Shown here: positions 6,034 through 58,896 of the stretch, piece by piece
Position numbering within the stretch: position 1 is the first letter of the stretch
Layout of the letters: each line of letters begins with the position of its first letter
NCBI GenBank assembly: GCA_000511875.1
Contig: AZIN01000003.1
Span: 25,034-89,033 of the forward strand
Source: Gammaproteobacteria bacterium MOLA455
GTDB lineage: Bacteria; Pseudomonadota; Gammaproteobacteria; Pseudomonadales; Porticoccaceae
Reading direction: 5' to 3'
Length of the DNA stretch: 64,000 nt
Translations under genes and position numbers: made by a program
Notes under the pieces: model-generated
Database searches by the model: none
The model's input: the letters and a program-made list of their open reading frames with translations, nothing else
What the model was told of the DNA's origin: nothing

Positions 6034-6573
6034 ATGGCAAGGCTTAAAGAATTGTACAAGAACGAGTTGGCACCGGCGCTGCAAAAAGAGCTCGGGCTGG
6101 CTAACGTGATGGAAATTCCGCGCATCACCAAGATCACTCTGAATATGGGTGTTGGTGAAGCTATAGGTGACAAGAAGTCGCTTGAGAATGCGGTTGCTGA
6201 TTTAACTTTGATCGCGGCGCAGAAGCCGGTGATCAACAATGCGCGCAAGTCTATTGCTGGATTTAAAGTCCGTCAGGGATGGCCCATTGGTACCAAGGTA
6301 ACTTTGCGTGCAGATCGTATGTATGAATTCCTTGAGCGTTTGGTCGGCATTGCAATTCCACGTATTCGTGATTTCCGTGGTATTAGCCCAAAGCAGTTTG
6401 ATGGGCGCGGTAACTTCTCTATGGGTGTAAGTGAGCAAATCATTTTCCCTGAGATCGATTACGAGAAAATTGATAAGTTGCGTGGTCTTGATATCACTAT
6501 CACGACAACTGCTCGAAACGATGACGAAGGCCGTGCTCTACTGCGCGCCTTTAACTTCCCGCTGAAAAGTTGA
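6034..6573 (+). CDS. rplE: 50S ribosomal protein L5
   Basis: L5 binds 5S rRNA and touches the P-site tRNA and the S13 bridge. The 179 residues match E. coli L5 in length and show the family segments [33 protein letters not shown] (read in parts) and the C-terminal [17 protein letters not shown]. It stands between rplX and rpsN as in the usual spc order. Confidence 0.98.
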
Positions 6574-6585
6574 GGTTGTAGGTAA

Positions 6586-6891
6586 ATGGCAAAAGAATCC
6601 ATGATTCAGCGCGAGCATAAGCGCACCAGAACAGTTGCTAAATTCGCTGAAAAGCGTGCTGCTATTAAAGCGGTGATTAGCGATGTAAATGCATCTGACG
6701 AAGATCGTTGGAATGCACAAGTAAGTTTGCAAAAGTTGCCGCGTGATGCGAGCCCAGTTCGTCAGCGTAACCGCTGCAGAGTTACTGGTCGTCCGCACGG
6801 TGTGTACCGAAAGTTTGGCCTGTGCCGAAACAAACTGCGTGAGTCAGCTATGCGCGGTGAAGTTCCTGGCCTGGTTAAATCCAGCTGGTAA
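6586..6891 (+). CDS. rpsN: 30S ribosomal protein S14 (zinc-independent type)
   Basis: S14 is a head protein of the 30S subunit. The 101-residue length and the [20 protein letters not shown] region mark the long C-minus form: the two CxxC pairs of the short zinc-binding form are absent, so no zinc is required. The C-terminus [11 protein letters not shown] is typical. The gene sits between rplE and rpsH. Confidence 0.97.
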
Positions 6892-6910
6892 GTTTGAGGA
6901 GCCAAACGTT

Positions 6911-7303
6911 ATGAGTATGCAAGATCCTTTATCCGATATGTTGACTCGCATTCGCAATGCGCATCACCGCAGTCACCCGCAAGTGTCCATGCCTGCTTCA
7001 AAGCTTAAAGCGTCTGTCGCTAAAGTTTTGCAGGAGGAAGGCTATATTGATGGGTTCTCTGTCTCTGATGACGTTAAGCCAACTATGACAGTTGCGCTTA
7101 AGTATTTCGAAGGCAAGCCAGTAATTGAAGAAATAACACGTATTAGCAAGCCAGGTTTACGCCAGTACAAGGGTAGCTCGGACATTGTTAAAGTTCGCAG
7201 TGGTTTGGGCATTGCCATAGTCTCCACCAGCAATGGTGTGATGACTGACCGCGCGGCCCGCGCTGCCGGTATCGGCGGTGAAGTGCTTTGCACCGTATTC
7301 TGA
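6911..7303 (+). CDS. rpsH: 30S ribosomal protein S8
   Basis: S8 is a primary 16S rRNA binder and, in E. coli, the translational repressor of the spc operon through a site near rplE. I start at ATG 6911 ([17 protein letters not shown]), which gives 130 residues, the E. coli length. The open frame extends upstream to 6743, but that part lies inside rpsN and is unrelated to S8. The conserved C-terminal [20 protein letters not shown] is present. Confidence 0.97.
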
Positions 7304-7315
7304 TAGGAAAACGAG

Positions 7316-7849
7316 ATGTCTAGAGTTGCAAATAATCCAGTAGAGCTGCCCAGTGGTGTTCAAGTCACCATCGCCGGCTCTGAGATAACAGTCAAAGGAA
7401 AGATTGGCTCATTAGTGATGCCAATCAATCCAGAAGTTGAAATTGTTCAGGACGAAAGCGTATTAACGTTTTCGGCTCGGTCAAGTGCTAAGTTCGCCCG
7501 CGCTATGTCTGGTACTACCAGAGCGTTGGTTAGCAATATGGTGACTGGTGTTTCAAAAGGTTTTGAAAAGAAGCTTGATTTGATCGGTGTTGGTTATCGT
7601 GCACAGGTTCAGGGTAGCAAGATTAATCTGACCTTAGGCTTTTCTCATCCAGTGGTGTATGACTTGCCACAGGGTGTGACTGCTGAAACGCCAAGCCAGA
7701 CTGAAATTTTACTTAAATCCTCGGACAAGCAGGTGTTGGGTCAAGCCGCAGCTGAAATCCGCGCCTTCCGTCCGCCAGAGCCTTACAAAGGTAAGGGAGT
7801 TAGAATCTCCGGTGAGCACGTAAGACGCAAAGAGGCCAAGAAGAAGTAA
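7316..7849 (+). CDS. rplF: 50S ribosomal protein L6
   Basis: L6 lies next to the sarcin-ricin loop at the factor-binding site. The 177-residue protein has two related L6 folds; the second contains the signature [24 protein letters not shown] at the C-terminus. The start is preceded by a GGAAAACGAG purine stretch. It follows rpsH by 12 nt. Confidence 0.97.
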
Positions 7850-7861
7850 TAGGGTAATACG

Positions 7862-8212
7862 ATGAGCGATAAGAAAGTATCACGTCAGCGTCGCGCTAAG
7901 CGCGTACGCATGAAGATCCGCGAATTAGGTGCTAACCGTCTGTGCATAAATAGGACTCCACGTCATATCTATGCCCAGGTTATTGCCGCAGATGGCGATC
8001 GTGTTTTGGCTACTGCCTCCACGCTGGAGAAGGATCTGCGCAGTGGTAGCACTGGTAACACAGATGCAGCTACGGTTGTTGGCAAATTGGTTGCCGAGCG
8101 CGCTGTTGCCGCGGGTGTCACTAAAGTGGCGTTCGACCGCAGTGGCTTCAAATACCATGGCCGTGTAAAAGCACTGGCTGACGCCGCGCGTGAAGCCGGC
8201 CTCGAATTTTAA
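7862..8212 (+). CDS. rplR: 50S ribosomal protein L18
   Basis: L18 binds 5S rRNA together with L5. The 116 residues show a basic N-terminus ([21 protein letters not shown], in parts) and the family core [28 protein letters not shown]. The C-terminal [26 protein letters not shown] is nearly invariant in bacteria. The gaps to rplF and rpsE are 12 nt each. Confidence 0.97.
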
Positions 8213-8224
8213 TAGGTAGAAGAT

Positions 8225-8731
8225 ATGGCTCTTACAGATCAGAAAGATGCAGCTGAAGGAATGATGGAGAAGCTGGTTCAGGTTAACCGCGTTGCTAAGA
8301 CGGTTAAAGGTGGACGGATATTTGCTTTTACTGCACTGACTGTTGTTGGTGATGGCAATGGTAAAGTTGGTTTCGGTCGTGGCAAGGCGCGTGAAGTGCC
8401 CCAGGCGATTCAGAAGGCGATGGAGTCCGCTCGTCGCAACATGATTGATGTTGCTCTCGATGGCAACACCATTCAGTATCCGACTAAAGGCATTCACGCG
8501 GCATCAAAGATTTACATGCAGCCAGCCTCTGATGGTACTGGTGTAATTGCCGGCGGCGCAATGCGCTCTGTGTTAGAACTGGCCGGTGTACAGAATGTTC
8601 TGGCTAAGTGTTACGGTTCAACTAACCCAGTAAACGTAGTTCGCGCGACTTTCAAGGCGCTGCGAGATATGAAATCACCGGAAGATGTTGCAGCGAAGCG
8701 TGGCAAATCTGTCGACGAAATCCTCAACTAA
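8225..8731 (+). CDS. rpsE: 30S ribosomal protein S5
   Basis: S5 works at the decoding centre and mRNA entry site, where mutations alter fidelity and spectinomycin sensitivity. The 168-residue protein has an N-terminal dsRBD-like domain with [30 protein letters not shown] (read in parts) and a C-terminal domain with [33 protein letters not shown] 38-bp spacer with a short GCTAA/TTAGC inverted repeat separates it from rpmD. Confidence 0.97.
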
Positions 8732-8769
8732 GTGACCGCTAATTTAGCGTCAGTTATTGGAAGTAGATC

Positions 8770-8964
8770 ATGGCAAAAGCGAAATTGAAGAAAATTAAGG
8801 TAACTCAGACCAAAAGCATCATCGGTCGTTTACAGAATCACAAGGCCTGTGTTTCTGGTTTGGGTTTGCGTCGGATCGGTCACACTGTTGAAGTAGAAGA
8901 TACTCCGTCAGTTCGTGGCATGATCAATAAAGTTCACTATATGTTGCAGGTTGAGGAAGCTTAA
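8770..8964 (+). CDS. rpmD: 50S ribosomal protein L30
   Basis: L30 is a small large-subunit protein found in most but not all bacteria. The 64 residues are a few longer than E. coli L30, with a basic lead [20 protein letters not shown] and the conserved core [34 protein letters not shown]. The stop is 1 nt before the rplO ATG, which indicates coupled translation. Confidence 0.96.
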
Positions 8965-8965
8965 G

Positions 8966-9400
8966 ATGCGTCTGAATACCCTTAGCCCAGCACCGGGCCG
9001 AATTAAAGAAGCCAAACGCGTCGGACGCGGTATTGGTAGTGGAATTGGTAAGACTGGTGGCCGTGGTCACAAAGGTCAGAAAGCGCGCTCTGGTGGCGGT
9101 ATCCGTCCCGGTTTTGAAGGCGGTCAGATGCCTTTGCAGAAGCGTCTTCCTAAGTATGGCTTTACGTCGCGCTTGGCTGCTGTAACTGCAGAGATCCGTC
9201 TTTCTGAGTTGGATAAAGTTGAAGGCGGCATAGTCACAATCGATAGCCTGCGTGCAGCTGGATTGATCAACTGTAGCATCACCCGAGCAAAAGTTTTTGC
9301 TTCTGGTGTGGTTACAAAAGCAGTAACGCTGCAAGGTGTCGGAGTCACTAAAGGTGCTCTGGTTGCTATTGAAGCCGCTGGCGGAAAGGTAGAAGTCTAA
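8966..9400 (+). CDS. rplO: 50S ribosomal protein L15
   Basis: L15 is a late assembly protein of the 50S subunit. The start at ATG 8966 gives 144 residues ([22 protein letters not shown] onward, in parts), the E. coli length; the frame is open to 8951 but that part overlaps rpmD. The glycine-rich segment [22 protein letters not shown] is typical. It is immediately followed by secY, 2 nt downstream. Confidence 0.97.
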
Positions 9401-54294: not shown

Positions 54295-54960
54295 CTAGCC
54301 CAACAGCTGCTTTAAATTATCCAGCTCGGTTAATGCCCGTTCTTTACTCGCCTTCTTCATTGAAGTCTCGGGCAATGCTGCCGGCGGCTCTACGCTAAAT
54401 ACTTCACCGCTGATTACTCGCTCGCAGTACTGCTGGTAGGTCTCAGCAAACTGGGGAAAGGCTTTGCTCTCAGCTGTATTAGCCAGAAAGTGCCAACCGC
54501 AGTCACGGCCAGCGGCATAGACCGCTGGATGAGACCACTTCTGCGCCGCCTTTGGGCTTGGCATATTACAGACTTCAAGATAGGCCTTGCGCGGCGCTGG
54601 TAGCCCGGCGGGCATGCCCACAGCGCGGCAGGCCTTAATCATTTTATGGAGCGTTGGCAGGTAGTCGTTGTCGGCGATTATTTTTTCCGCAGCCAATAAA
54701 ATAACGTTTGGGGCGAAATCACCCAGAGTTGACAGCCACAGTTTTTTTGCCATTCCAACAGATTCGTTTTTATCGCCAAAGGCCGCGTAATACTGGTTGT
54801 GATAATTGACGCGAAACAGGGCAAAGGTCTGATTGATTGCATCAATCAGTTCCGCAGTAGCAGGGGCCTTTTTAGCTTGCCCAGCTGCGGTCGGTGAGAT
54901 CTTCGACGAAGCTGCGATCTCGGATGCGACCGTTTGGATTAGATCCTTGTTGTTTGCCAT
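54295..54960 (-). CDS. Phage lambda P-like replication protein (helicase loader)
   Basis: A 221-residue protein of the replication protein P type. Lambda P binds DnaB helicase and delivers it to the origin. The start is ATG 54960 (MANNKDLIQTVASEIAAS); the frame is open further upstream only because it reads through the preceding gene. Family segments: VNYHNQYYAAFGD, AKKLWLSTLGDFAPNVILLAAEKI, KWSHPAVYAAGRDCGWHFLA and TYQQYCERVISGE. There is no ATPase motif, unlike DnaC. The first 89 nt overlap the end of the DnaT-like gene, so the two are surely coupled. No integrase or structural phage genes are nearby. Confidence 0.75.
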   Translation of the reverse strand: MANNKDLIQTVASEIAASSKISPTAAGQAKKAPATAELIDAINQTFALFRVNYHNQYYAAFGDKNESVGMAKKLWLSTLGDFAPNVILLAAEKIIADNDYLPTLHKMIKACRAVGMPAGLPAPRKAYLEVCNMPSPKAAQKWSHPAVYAAGRDCGWHFLANTAESKAFPQFAETYQQYCERVISGEVFSVEPPAALPETSMKKASKERALTELDNLKQLLG

Positions 54961-56080
54961 GTGCTGTATCCGTTGACGAAGGTTGAATATGTCGCGCCCA
55001 CTGGCGCTTGACGAACTGAAGAAACTTGGTGCTCCAAGAGCTCTGGGGCATACCATTCTCTTGCCAGTACAAAATAAATTCCGGCACCAACTGCTCGGCG
55101 AACTGACGATTGATATTGGCCATTTGCAGTACATCATAGACCGAGGCTTTAGGCTGCCAATTGGCTTCAATTTTCCGCGGCATACTGTCCTGATCCATCA
55201 TCCCAGTATAGAACTGCCACTGGCGACGAATATGCTGGATAAACTTCGAGTCCCAGGTGCTCGAGACATCGCCGCGGTCGCGCCAGTAGAGAATAAATTC
55301 GGGAATCGAATCGTCAATAAAATTGCTATTGATACCGCCCTGGCCAATCAAAATCTGCAGGGCATCTCGCGACGGCCGCCACTCATCGGTGAGAGTGACT
55401 TCCTGACGTCGGCGATGGGAGGTGGCTTCGGCTTGCTGCCACTGACGCCAAACCTCTTTGATGAATTTTGACTCCCAGCTGTGGCGCGGCACATTGCGCT
55501 CTCGCCAATAGGCAACAAACTGGGGAATCTGCTGCTGGGCAAAGGCCTGAGTCACACCCAGCTGACTGAGTTGACGCAGGGCATCCTGACTCGGCTGCCA
55601 GCTATTGCCCATAGTCTTGGCCGAGGTGGGCATGCCATTGGATGGGACAGCTGTTGGTGCACTGTGGTTATAAGCGGGCTGTTGGCGTTGATTACTGTTC
55701 TGTTGAGAACTGAGTTGAGAGCTGAGTTGAGAGCTAGATCGAGAGCTTGCTTGAGCACTCTGAGCAGTACTCGCTGCCACAGCATCATTAAAGGCAAAGC
55801 GAAAGTCTCGCTGAGAGGAAAAGGGAGCGCCGCCAATCAACAGCAGGCCCTTTTCATGCAGTCCCGCCGAGAGCCGCAAAATATCTTCCTCGCGCCAGAA
55901 GGGTGCCAGACTCAGCAGTTTCTCTGAGGCCACCGTAAACCATTCAAAACCTTGGTTTTGCTCAGGCGTGCCATGACTGCGACACTCCTGCAAAAGTTGC
56001 AGCAACACGGTCTCTTCCAGGCCGATGGTAGCGGCCAGAGTAGGTGAAATAGTGATCGGTTTTTCGGGTATCAATGACAT
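54872..56080 (-). CDS. DnaT-like primosomal protein with three DnaT domains
   Basis: A 402-residue protein. Residues 1-105 form a winged-helix-like domain resembling DnaD/replisome organisers (TIGLEETVLLQLLQECRSHG, HEKGLLLIGG). A Ser/Gln-rich linker follows (about 105-160), then three DnaT-type repeats starting at WQPSQDALRQLSQLG, EWRPSRDALQILIG and NWQPKASVYDVLQM. Each has the pattern IPEFxxYW and ends SWxSKFIxxVxRQW. In E. coli DnaT helps load DnaC-bound DnaB during replication restart. Most DnaT-like proteins have one repeat, so three is notable. The 3' end overlaps the P-like gene. Confidence 0.78.
   Translation of the reverse strand: MSLIPEKPITISPTLAATIGLEETVLLQLLQECRSHGTPEQNQGFEWFTVASEKLLSLAPFWREEDILRLSAGLHEKGLLLIGGAPFSSQRDFRFAFNDAVAASTAQSAQASSRSSSQLSSQLSSQQNSNQRQQPAYNHSAPTAVPSNGMPTSAKTMGNSWQPSQDALRQLSQLGVTQAFAQQQIPQFVAYWRERNVPRHSWESKFIKEVWRQWQQAEATSHRRRQEVTLTDEWRPSRDALQILIGQGGINSNFIDDSIPEFILYWRDRGDVSSTWDSKFIQHIRRQWQFYTGMMDQDSMPRKIEANWQPKASVYDVLQMANINRQFAEQLVPEFILYWQENGMPQSSWSTKFLQFVKRQWARHIQPSSTDTAHGKQQGSNPNGRIRDRSFVEDLTDRSWAS
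55711..55746. repeat. 12-bp tandem repeat in the DnaT-like linker
   Basis: TGAGTTGAGAGC occurs twice in tandem and a third, diverged copy follows. It encodes the Ser/Gln linker (SSRSSSQLSSQLSSQQNS). A length-variable spacer between the winged-helix part and the DnaT repeats is the likely outcome. Confidence 0.75.
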
Positions 56081-56183: not shown

Positions 56184-56864
56184 CTAAACCGCCCAGCCCC
56201 CACTCACCGGAAATACCTGACCGACAAAACAATCCGCCGCGTCCGAACAGAGATAAGCGGCAAACAATGCATCCTCACGCAGTGACACCAAGCGCCCCAA
56301 TGGCACATCATTCTCAAGCCGCTGCTGAAACCTGGGGTTGGCCTTGGTCTCTTCGGGAAAATAGGTGGGATTATCGACAAAGTTCTGGGCGATGGCATTG
56401 ATCTGAATACCCTGAGGCGCCATCTCCACACCCATTGCTTTAACATAGGCGAGCTGCGCTCCCCGTGCGGCGCTATAGGTGGATGCACGCTTCATACCGC
56501 GCAGGGCTGAGGCGCTGCCCATCACTAAAATCTTGCCGCCCTGCCGCTCAATCATCTGCGGCAAAACCGCGGTGCAGAGTCTTGGCATGGGATCGACTAC
56601 GGCACGAAAGGTTGCTGACCATTCAGTGTCATCTACTAGCTCACCTTTGGTGAAGGGTGCAGGGATCGCCAGATTGATCACCAGTACATCTATACGCCCG
56701 GCCCGCTGAATAATCTTGGCTGGTAGGGACGGATCGATAAGCAGATTATTATCCGCGATCACCTCAGCACCCATCTCGGTGAAGACCTCGCAGAGGGTCG
56801 GCCCCATAAAGGTATCGGCTTGGGTGACTAGGATACGCTTGCCGGCTAGTTGCGCGCTGTTCAT
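56184..56864 (-). CDS. Halohydrin dehalogenase-like SDR protein
   Basis: A 226-residue short-chain dehydrogenase fold protein with both published signatures of halohydrin dehalogenases. T-x4-F-x-G stands at residues 14-21 (TQADTFMG) in place of the NAD(P) glycine motif, and S-x12-Y-x3-R is formed by Ser117, Tyr130 and Arg134, where ordinary SDRs have Lys. The next segment ANPRFQQRLENDVPLGRL and the NPTYFPEE loop also resemble HheC-type enzymes. These enzymes release halide from vicinal halohydrins and open epoxides, with a halide site instead of a cofactor. The function is inferred from motifs; no substrate is known. The GNAT gene lies 21 bp upstream. Confidence 0.78.
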   Translation of the reverse strand: MNSAQLAGKRILVTQADTFMGPTLCEVFTEMGAEVIADNNLLIDPSLPAKIIQRAGRIDVLVINLAIPAPFTKGELVDDTEWSATFRAVVDPMPRLCTAVLPQMIERQGGKILVMGSASALRGMKRASTYSAARGAQLAYVKAMGVEMAPQGIQINAIAQNFVDNPTYFPEETKANPRFQQRLENDVPLGRLVSLREDALFAAYLCSDAADCFVGQVFPVSGGWAV

Positions 56865-56885: not shown

Positions 56886-57392
56886 TTAATTGGCTTGTTT
56901 GGCGACGCTTTGCAGCGCCTCGCCAGTCAGGCGGTTAACCGTCCAGCCCTCCATGGGCAATGCGCCCAAGGATTGGTAAAAGTCGATGGCCGGTTGATTC
57001 CAGTCGAGTACCGACCATTCCAAACGACCGCAGTGTCGCGATACCGCGATCTTGGCCAGATGGGTAAGCAGTGCTTTGCCAAAGCCTTTGCCGCGCATGT
57101 TGGCCTCTACAAATAGATCTTCCAAATAGATACCGGGCTGGGCGAGAAAGGTTGAGTAGTTGGTGAAAAATAACGCCAAACCCACGGGCTTGCTCTGATA
57201 CTCGGCAATAATCACCTCGGCGCTGGGGCTGTCGCCAAACAGTGTAGCCGCGAGCTTTTCTTCATCGGCTACCACTTCGTGGGCGAGCTTTTCATACTCT
57301 GCTAGCAGGTGAATGAAATGCAAAATAGTTGAGCAGTCACTGACGCGTGCTGGGCGTATCTTAAATTCAGGGCAATTAGAAGGGAGCTGCAT
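56886..57392 (-). CDS. GNAT-family N-acetyltransferase
   Basis: A 168-residue acetyl-CoA-dependent acetyltransferase. The acetyl-CoA loop is RGKGFGKALL (in VEANMRGKGFGKALLTHLAKIA), preceded by YLEDLFV; the C-terminal strand has FYQSLGALPMEGW. The pattern resembles the diamine/small-amine acetyltransferase branch, but the substrate cannot be named. It lies 21 bp upstream of the dehalogenase-like gene on the same strand and may be co-transcribed. Confidence 0.82.
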   Translation of the reverse strand: MQLPSNCPEFKIRPARVSDCSTILHFIHLLAEYEKLAHEVVADEEKLAATLFGDSPSAEVIIAEYQSKPVGLALFFTNYSTFLAQPGIYLEDLFVEANMRGKGFGKALLTHLAKIAVSRHCGRLEWSVLDWNQPAIDFYQSLGALPMEGWTVNRLTGEALQSVAKQAN

Positions 57393-57522: not shown

Positions 57523-58896
57523 GTGGCCACCAAAGCTAAATCCGCCTTTGTCTGCAATGACTGCGGCGCCGACTACAACAAATGGCAGGGGCAGTGCGCC
57601 GAGTGCCATGCTTGGAATACCCTCTCTGAAATACGTCTAGGATCGCCCTCTCGCGGCGGCAAAACCCTGCGTTCCGGGTTTGCCGGTGCGGTAGACAGTG
57701 CGGTGAAAACCCTTGTCGATATTGCTCTGGACGAGGTCCCCCGCATCAGTACTGGAACTGGCGAGTTAGACCTGGTTCTCGGCGGCGGTCTGGTGCCGGG
57801 CTCCTGTGTCCTGCTCGGCGGTGAGCCGGGGGCGGGCAAGAGTACGGTGCTACTGCAAACGCTATGCAAACTAGCTGAAAATCATTCTGCACTCTATGTC
57901 ACCGGTGAAGAATCACCTCAGCAGATTGCCATGCGCGCCAATCGGCTGGGTCTGCCCACCAATAAGCTTGAGGTGATGGCCGAGACGTCAGTGGAAACGG
58001 TCTGTGCCATTGCCGAGCAAAAACGCCCCAAGATTCTGGTGGTGGATTCGATTCAAGTGATGCATATGGAAGAGGTCGCCTCGGCACCAGGCAGCGTCTC
58101 TCAGGTCCGTGAAAGTGCTGCCATGCTAGTGCGCTTTGCCAAGCAGAGCGGCACTGTATTGATTCTGGTGGGTCATGTTACCAAAGACGGTTCTCTGGCT
58201 GGCCCCAAAGTGCTCGAACATATGATCGACTGCTCGCTGATGCTTGAGGGTTCCAGCGATAATCATTTCCGTACCTTGCGCAGCCACAAAAACCGTTTTG
58301 GTGCGGTCAATGAACTGGGTGTGTTTGCCATGACCGATAAAGGCTTGCGGGAAGTGCCCAACCCCTCGGCAATCTTTTTACAGCGCGCCGAGGAGATCTC
58401 TTCCGGCAGTGTGGTGATGATTATCTGGGAGGGCACCAGACCTTTGTTGGTTGAATTACAGGCATTGGTGGATGACAGCCATCTGGGCAATCCACGTCGG
58501 GTCACTGTCGGGCTGGATCACAATCGTCTGTCCATGCTGCTGGCGGTACTGCACAGACATGGTGGTATTTCGGTTGGCGATCAGGATGTTTTCGTCAATG
58601 TGGTGGGCGGGGTCAAAGTGCTTGAGACCAGCGCTGATCTGGCGTTGATTCTGGCAGTGATCTCGAGCTTTCGTGACAAGACATTACCTCAGGATCTGGT
58701 GGTCTTTGGTGAGGTTGGGCTGGCCGGTGAAATTCGCCCGGTGGCCAATGGTCAGGAGCGACTCCGTGAGGCGGCGAAACATGGCTTTACCCGAGCTATA
58801 GTGCCGGCGGGCAATGTGCCTAAGCAGCCGATTAAGGGAATGACTGTGATTGGTGTGCGCAAGGTGACTGAGGCGCTGGAGGCAGCTTCTTGCTGA
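57523..58896 (+). CDS. radA: DNA repair protein RadA
   Basis: RadA is a RecA-like ATPase that promotes branch migration in recombinational repair. The GTG start has AAGGAG 7 nt upstream. The 457-residue protein has an N-terminal zinc finger (CNDC and CAEC), Walker A GGEPGAGKST (about 100-110), the RadA-specific KNRFG motif and a C-terminal Lon-protease-like domain. It is a lone gene, divergent from the GNAT gene. Confidence 0.97.
   Translation: MATKAKSAFVCNDCGADYNKWQGQCAECHAWNTLSEIRLGSPSRGGKTLRSGFAGAVDSAVKTLVDIALDEVPRISTGTGELDLVLGGGLVPGSCVLLGGEPGAGKSTVLLQTLCKLAENHSALYVTGEESPQQIAMRANRLGLPTNKLEVMAETSVETVCAIAEQKRPKILVVDSIQVMHMEEVASAPGSVSQVRESAAMLVRFAKQSGTVLILVGHVTKDGSLAGPKVLEHMIDCSLMLEGSSDNHFRTLRSHKNRFGAVNELGVFAMTDKGLREVPNPSAIFLQRAEEISSGSVVMIIWEGTRPLLVELQALVDDSHLGNPRRVTVGLDHNRLSMLLAVLHRHGGISVGDQDVFVNVVGGVKVLETSADLALILAVISSFRDKTLPQDLVVFGEVGLAGEIRPVANGQERLREAAKHGFTRAIVPAGNVPKQPIKGMTVIGVRKVTEALEAASC

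Follow-up and report, generated by a model that had tools for sequence, protein, structure and literature searches.

A predicted ortholog of the halohydrin dehalogenase HheD2 in a GNAT-hheD accessory cassette of SAR92-like marine bacteria

Introduction

HheD2, a D-type halohydrin dehalogenase, was found, verified, and crystallized in earlier work (PDB 7b73), as described in the accessible parts of PMC4989007 and PMC5892878, and HheD through HheD6 are listed as experimentally verified in the part of PMC4989007 available to us. Halohydrin dehalogenases are recognized by two fingerprints, T-X4-F/Y-X-G and S-X12-Y-X3-R (excerpts of PMC4989007 and PMC11976700). According to the available text of PMC6922532, marine Pseudomonas of the P. 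pertucinogena lineage carry relatives of HheD12. In the accessible part of PMC4989007, only two known genes of the family share an operon with an epoxide hydrolase, and other physiological functions are therefore considered possible. Our literature search found no work joining halohydrin dehalogenases with SAR92.

Here, a 64,000-nucleotide stretch of the Gammaproteobacteria bacterium MOLA455 genome (the window) was analyzed around a gene that we call hheD. This gene had been proposed, from its sequence, to encode a halohydrin dehalogenase in a marine chromosome.

Results

The hheD ORF carries both halohydrin dehalogenase motifs

The hheD ORF starts with ATG and reads 226 amino acids. Its features are as follows.

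56184..56864, minus strand: hheD2 ortholog, predicted D-type halohydrin dehalogenase, 226 aa (from ORF, motifs, tree, and fold match)
56802..56825, minus strand: motif 1, TQADTFMG, residues 14-21, a nucleophile-pocket loop of the form T-x4-F-x-G that replaces the glycine-rich cofactor loop of SDRs
56463..56516, minus strand: motif 2, the Ser117-x12-Tyr130-x3-Arg134 catalytic triad, from the sequence pattern
56358..56372, minus strand: NPTYF, residues 165-169, a third loop at the SDR PG-motif region

TQADTFMG and the Ser117-Tyr130-Arg134 set lie exactly where the original prediction had placed them. The SDR cofactor loop T-G/A-x3-G/A-x-G and the pattern S-x10-14-Y-x3-K were both absent from the window protein in a pattern search. 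Many SDRs have a PG motif at the region matching NPTYF; the same search found no PG motif in the window protein, and the NPTYF loop may have a pocket role there.

As a control set, the 25 Pfam adh_short_C2 loci of the 2.6-Mb genome were collected, hheD included, and the longest open frame at each of the other 24 loci (SDR paralogs) was read for motifs. Neither motif 1 nor motif 2 was present in any of the 24 paralogs, all of which matched S-x10-14-Y-x3-K, and 16 of which matched the strict SDR cofactor-loop pattern. Both motifs were kept in 80/80 homologs, the best 80 of 363 relatives described below. Among these same 80, N-[PK]-x-Y-F was present in 77 (vs 0/24 paralogs) and the SDR PG pattern in none (vs 15/24 paralogs). 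When the residues of the window protein were shuffled 100,000 times, motif 1 (within the first 40 residues) appeared 729 times, motif 2 appeared 985 times, and the two appeared together 7 times. The use of these motifs as marks of halohydrin dehalogenases, on which the original prediction was built, agrees with both the SDR control set and the fingerprints in the accessible parts of PMC4989007 and PMC11976700.

The window protein is nearly identical to HheD2

In a pairwise count, 212 of the 226 residues of the window protein were identical to those of HheD2 (7b73), and none of the 14 substitutions fell in motif 1 or at Ser117, Tyr130, or Arg134. The HTCC2207 ORF at the equivalent locus (L031) was identical to the 7b73 stretch at 226/226 residues. 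A sequence search of solved structures returned 7b73 as the best match (E 7e-141), followed by 8xxb and then HheB 4zd6.

An AlphaFold2 model was computed from 33 sequences, the window protein plus 32 of its 80 homologs. The mean pLDDT was 82.6, with values below 50 at residues 118-123, directly after Ser117, and at the C-terminal residues 221-226. In a Foldseek search with this model, ranks 1-9 were occupied by four chains of 7b73 (titled halohydrin dehalogenase HheD2), HheD8 with chloride, and four HheB-type chains. FabG-type SDRs started at rank 10, behind these halohydrin dehalogenase chains, and the dehalogenase 6a41 came at rank 15, after some FabG chains; no HheA or HheC chain was among the 50 best matches listed. 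In its structural matches, the model favors a halohydrin dehalogenase (7b73) over the FabG-type SDRs. The Foldseek rmsd between the model and 7b73 was 3.3 A at 94% identity, which probably reflects the modest quality of the monomer model and not a difference in fold.

Phylogenetic analysis groups the protein with D-type enzymes

A tree of 100 rows was constructed, including 13 of the 24 SDR paralogs and leaving out HheE, HheF, and HheG sequences. The 13 paralogs split from the halohydrin dehalogenase rows at 100/98. The window protein, HTCC2207, 7b73, and three further loci formed a six-row group at 100/98, and 16 loci (L030-L045) grouped with the window protein and 7b73 at 100/99. We call these 16 loci SAR92-like because the titles of several name SAR92, HTCC2207, or Porticoccaceae. 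HheA2, HheC, and a partial 6a41 row formed another supported branch (100/91); HheA2 and HheC were identical to the window protein at 70/218 and 65/219 residues, respectively. D-type kinship was also seen in the identities to HheD2 and HheD8 (137/222). In the placement against known types, which had been suggested as a check, the protein groups with D-type 7b73 and apart from HheA2 and HheC, but the tree places HheB among the D rows, its long branch being flagged by the tool as possibly false. HheB is identical to the window protein at 104/224 residues (46%), which misfits the figure of <30% identity between subtypes given in the available part of PMC4989007.

These results suggest that the window gene is an HheD2 ortholog encoding a D-type halohydrin dehalogenase, that is, a cofactor-free enzyme of the SDR fold, with a probability that we put at roughly 0.96. 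The identity with HheD2 carries the halohydrin dehalogenase claim, and the Foldseek ranking and the tree split agree with it, so this part of the original prediction is borne out. Judged by sequence comparison, the gene is a D-type halohydrin dehalogenase ortholog carried by another SAR92-like species. The enzyme is not a discovery, because the ortholog HheD2 has already been crystallized and its D-type sisters have verified activity, and the window sequence adds little beyond HheD2.

hheD lies in a GNAT-hheD cassette at a fixed chromosomal site

The genes surrounding hheD are as follows.

56886..57392, minus strand: GNAT-family acetyltransferase, on the strand of hheD and 21 bases upstream of it
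57523..58896, plus strand: gene that we take to be radA-like, a conserved border of the cassette
54872..56080, minus strand: protein with three DnaT-domain stretches (dnaT), the conserved other border of the cassette

The GNAT gene and hheD probably form a two-gene unit and may be cotranscribed; a promoter and terminator scan at the locus gave consensus matches only. The order radA-gnat-hheD was kept in all 16 SAR92-like loci, and dnaT followed hheD in 14 of them, the exceptions being L030 and L034, the latter of which ends 977 bases beyond hheD. The original prediction had likewise named a neighboring GNAT gene and a conserved region, and the region is indeed conserved in related genomes. In L030, which is from a MAG, a TonB-receptor-like ORF on the opposite strand and an alpha/beta-hydrolase-like ORF (6095-9082) stand in the place of dnaT; the ORF identities come from reading, and the stretch is a candidate insertion or assembly join. 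In the window, the DnaT-domain protein overlaps, in another frame, a gene like that of lambda replication protein P (54295-56080, minus strand). This pair was present in 13/16 SAR92-like loci but was not seen in L030, L034, and L036, and it is possibly a chromosomal primosome/helicase-loader pair.

Among 39 congener genomes, radA was matched in 33 (6 were without a match), and 30 of those 33 junctions were seen (L128-L157). The GNAT gene and hheD were both present at 15 junctions, the GNAT gene only at 3, and neither at 12, where radA adjoins dnaT. The radA match of L133 (G016) contains one in-frame TGA. No match to hheD elsewhere in the genome was found at 1e-30 in 14 of the 15 congeners with an hheD-less junction, G056 being outside the search. 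On the radA protein tree, the three junction states need 3 changes, compared with a shuffled mean of 12.0; therefore, the cassette behaves like an accessory unit that is passed on vertically and rarely gained or lost. The radA-dnaT junction is a clean accessory-cassette site.

Distribution and selection of hheD

Of 56 genomes, own genome included, 14 carried hheD; all 14 were within the genus, to which 35 of the 56 belong. In the order, hheD was present in 19/293 genomes and 7/118 genera (E 1e-60), and it was absent from most genomes of the order searched. When species genomes were scanned, the peptide pattern hit 402 stretches. A relative is encoded by 363 of these at E 1e-3, an upper figure because ordinary SDRs may be counted in it. 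The 80 best of these 363 shared 66-95% identity. With at least 80 loci in this range, all 80 with both motifs, the rarity that the original prediction had ascribed to such enzymes is unsupported in any strong sense.

For dN/dS analysis, four pairs were picked for equal length. The values for hheD were 0.059, 0.041, 0.042, and 0.061 against L030, L031, L033, and L038, respectively, with a dS of 1.8, near saturation, in the L038 pair. hheD is thus under strong purifying selection.

Neighboring genes and partner enzymes

The ORF caller found hheD in 77 of 81 sources (80 loci and the window), and L073, L079, L094, and L097 were left out of the distance and neighbor lists; the neighbor counts are rough because the dnaT ORF of the window itself escaped the caller. 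No neighbor cluster spanned more than five loci outside the SAR92-like clade. Same-strand neighbors within 200 bases of hheD numbered 41 upstream and 29 downstream, and Pfam scans covered 39/41 (L054 and L070, with very long ORFs, were out) and 29/29, respectively. The commonest upstream family was alpha/beta-hydrolase (5/39, among 25 of 53 families listed), and the commonest downstream were photolyase domains and HMGL-like (3/29 each, among 25 of 33 families listed). Among ten chosen upstream neighbors, no dehalogenation enzyme was detected by NCBIfam (E 1e-10), and the sole listed match over its cut-off was an arsenosugar radical SAM protein. In the own genome, the EHN and LEH epoxide hydrolase families had no match at E 0.001, and the 2-haloacid dehalogenase family TIGR01428 had three matches, none over the cut-off.

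Discussion

Alternative explanations

Chance drift of the motifs in an ordinary NAD(P)-dependent SDR would be in keeping with the SDR fold of the window protein and with its family searches, which gave two generic SDR Pfam families over their cut-offs and, among 25 of 178 NCBIfam matches listed, generic SDR families only, none over its own cut-off. Against this, the protein has both halohydrin dehalogenase motifs and lacks the glycine-rich loop, the catalytic Lys pattern, and the PG motif, and its nearest solved structures by sequence as well as by fold are halohydrin dehalogenases. We therefore regard chance drift as highly improbable.

A halohydrin dehalogenase active site could also serve another natural job, namely the detoxification of epoxides with small anions or the conversion of some other metabolite. 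Consistent with such a job are the strong purifying selection on hheD, the small size of neighbor clusters outside the SAR92-like clade, the failure of all three partner families (EHN, LEH, and TIGR01428) to pass in the genome, and the room left for other physiological functions in the accessible part of PMC4989007. However, the active-site signature is unchanged from that of enzymes with measured dehalogenation, and that no partner operon was seen is negative evidence, obtained with a rough ORF caller. General epoxide hydrolases of the alpha/beta-hydrolase type are also possible partners, alpha/beta-hydrolase being the commonest upstream family among those listed. Another natural job is thus possible but, in our judgment, on the unlikely side.

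Proposed chemistry and natural role

The following chemistry for the predicted D-type enzyme is drawn by analogy from published work on HheC and the family. The protein would form a homotetramer, as other family members do. Arg134 would lower the pKa of Tyr130, and Tyr130 would take the proton from the hydroxyl group of a vicinal halohydrin that Ser117 holds. Displacement of the neighboring halide by the resulting alkoxide would give an epoxide, and the halide would exit into a pocket whose lining includes the Thr14-Phe19-Gly21 loop and, probably, the NPTYF loop. In the reverse reaction, small anions (chloride, azide, cyanide, or nitrite) could open epoxides. Comparison of the sequence with 7b73 and 8xxb likewise suggests that the protein does not bind NAD(P) and has a halide/nucleophile pocket in its stead.

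As an accessory gene, hheD most likely serves in the turnover of small halohydrins or epoxides, and a link to marine organohalide turnover is a plausible extension. A more specific proposal, which we consider doubtful, is that D-type enzymes have a noncatabolic housekeeping or detoxification function, for example, with seawater halide or another small anion opening reactive epoxides, and that the GNAT-hheD accessory cassette is under strong selection in SAR92-like bacteria as part of no organohalide pathway. In SAR92-like marine bacteria, HheD2-type enzymes are an accessory trait that is conserved at one chromosomal site beside a GNAT gene, and this fixed site provides a defined setting for asking what HheD2-type biocatalysts do in nature.

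Comparison with known halohydrin dehalogenases

The closest described system is HheD2 of the marine gammaproteobacterium HTCC2207, which shares the locus, gene order, length, motif 1, and catalytic triad with the window gene and differs in its genome and in the 14 substitutions, which are scattered outside both motifs. HheD8 (8xxb, a triple mutant with chloride), the next structure after 7b73, is also D-type, with both motifs readable in the alignment, but only 137 of its 222 aligned residues are identical. HheB (4zd6), the closest non-D type among those compared, is a halohydrin dehalogenase of similar length (227), whereas its identity is limited to the 104/224 residues given above and its motif 1 has Tyr for Phe. 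HheC of A. radiobacter AD1 (1pwx), the model enzyme for the chemistry, has both motifs in common with the window protein; in contrast, it is 254 aa long, is identical at 65/219 residues in a global alignment, and groups with HheA2 and 6a41 on another branch of the tree.
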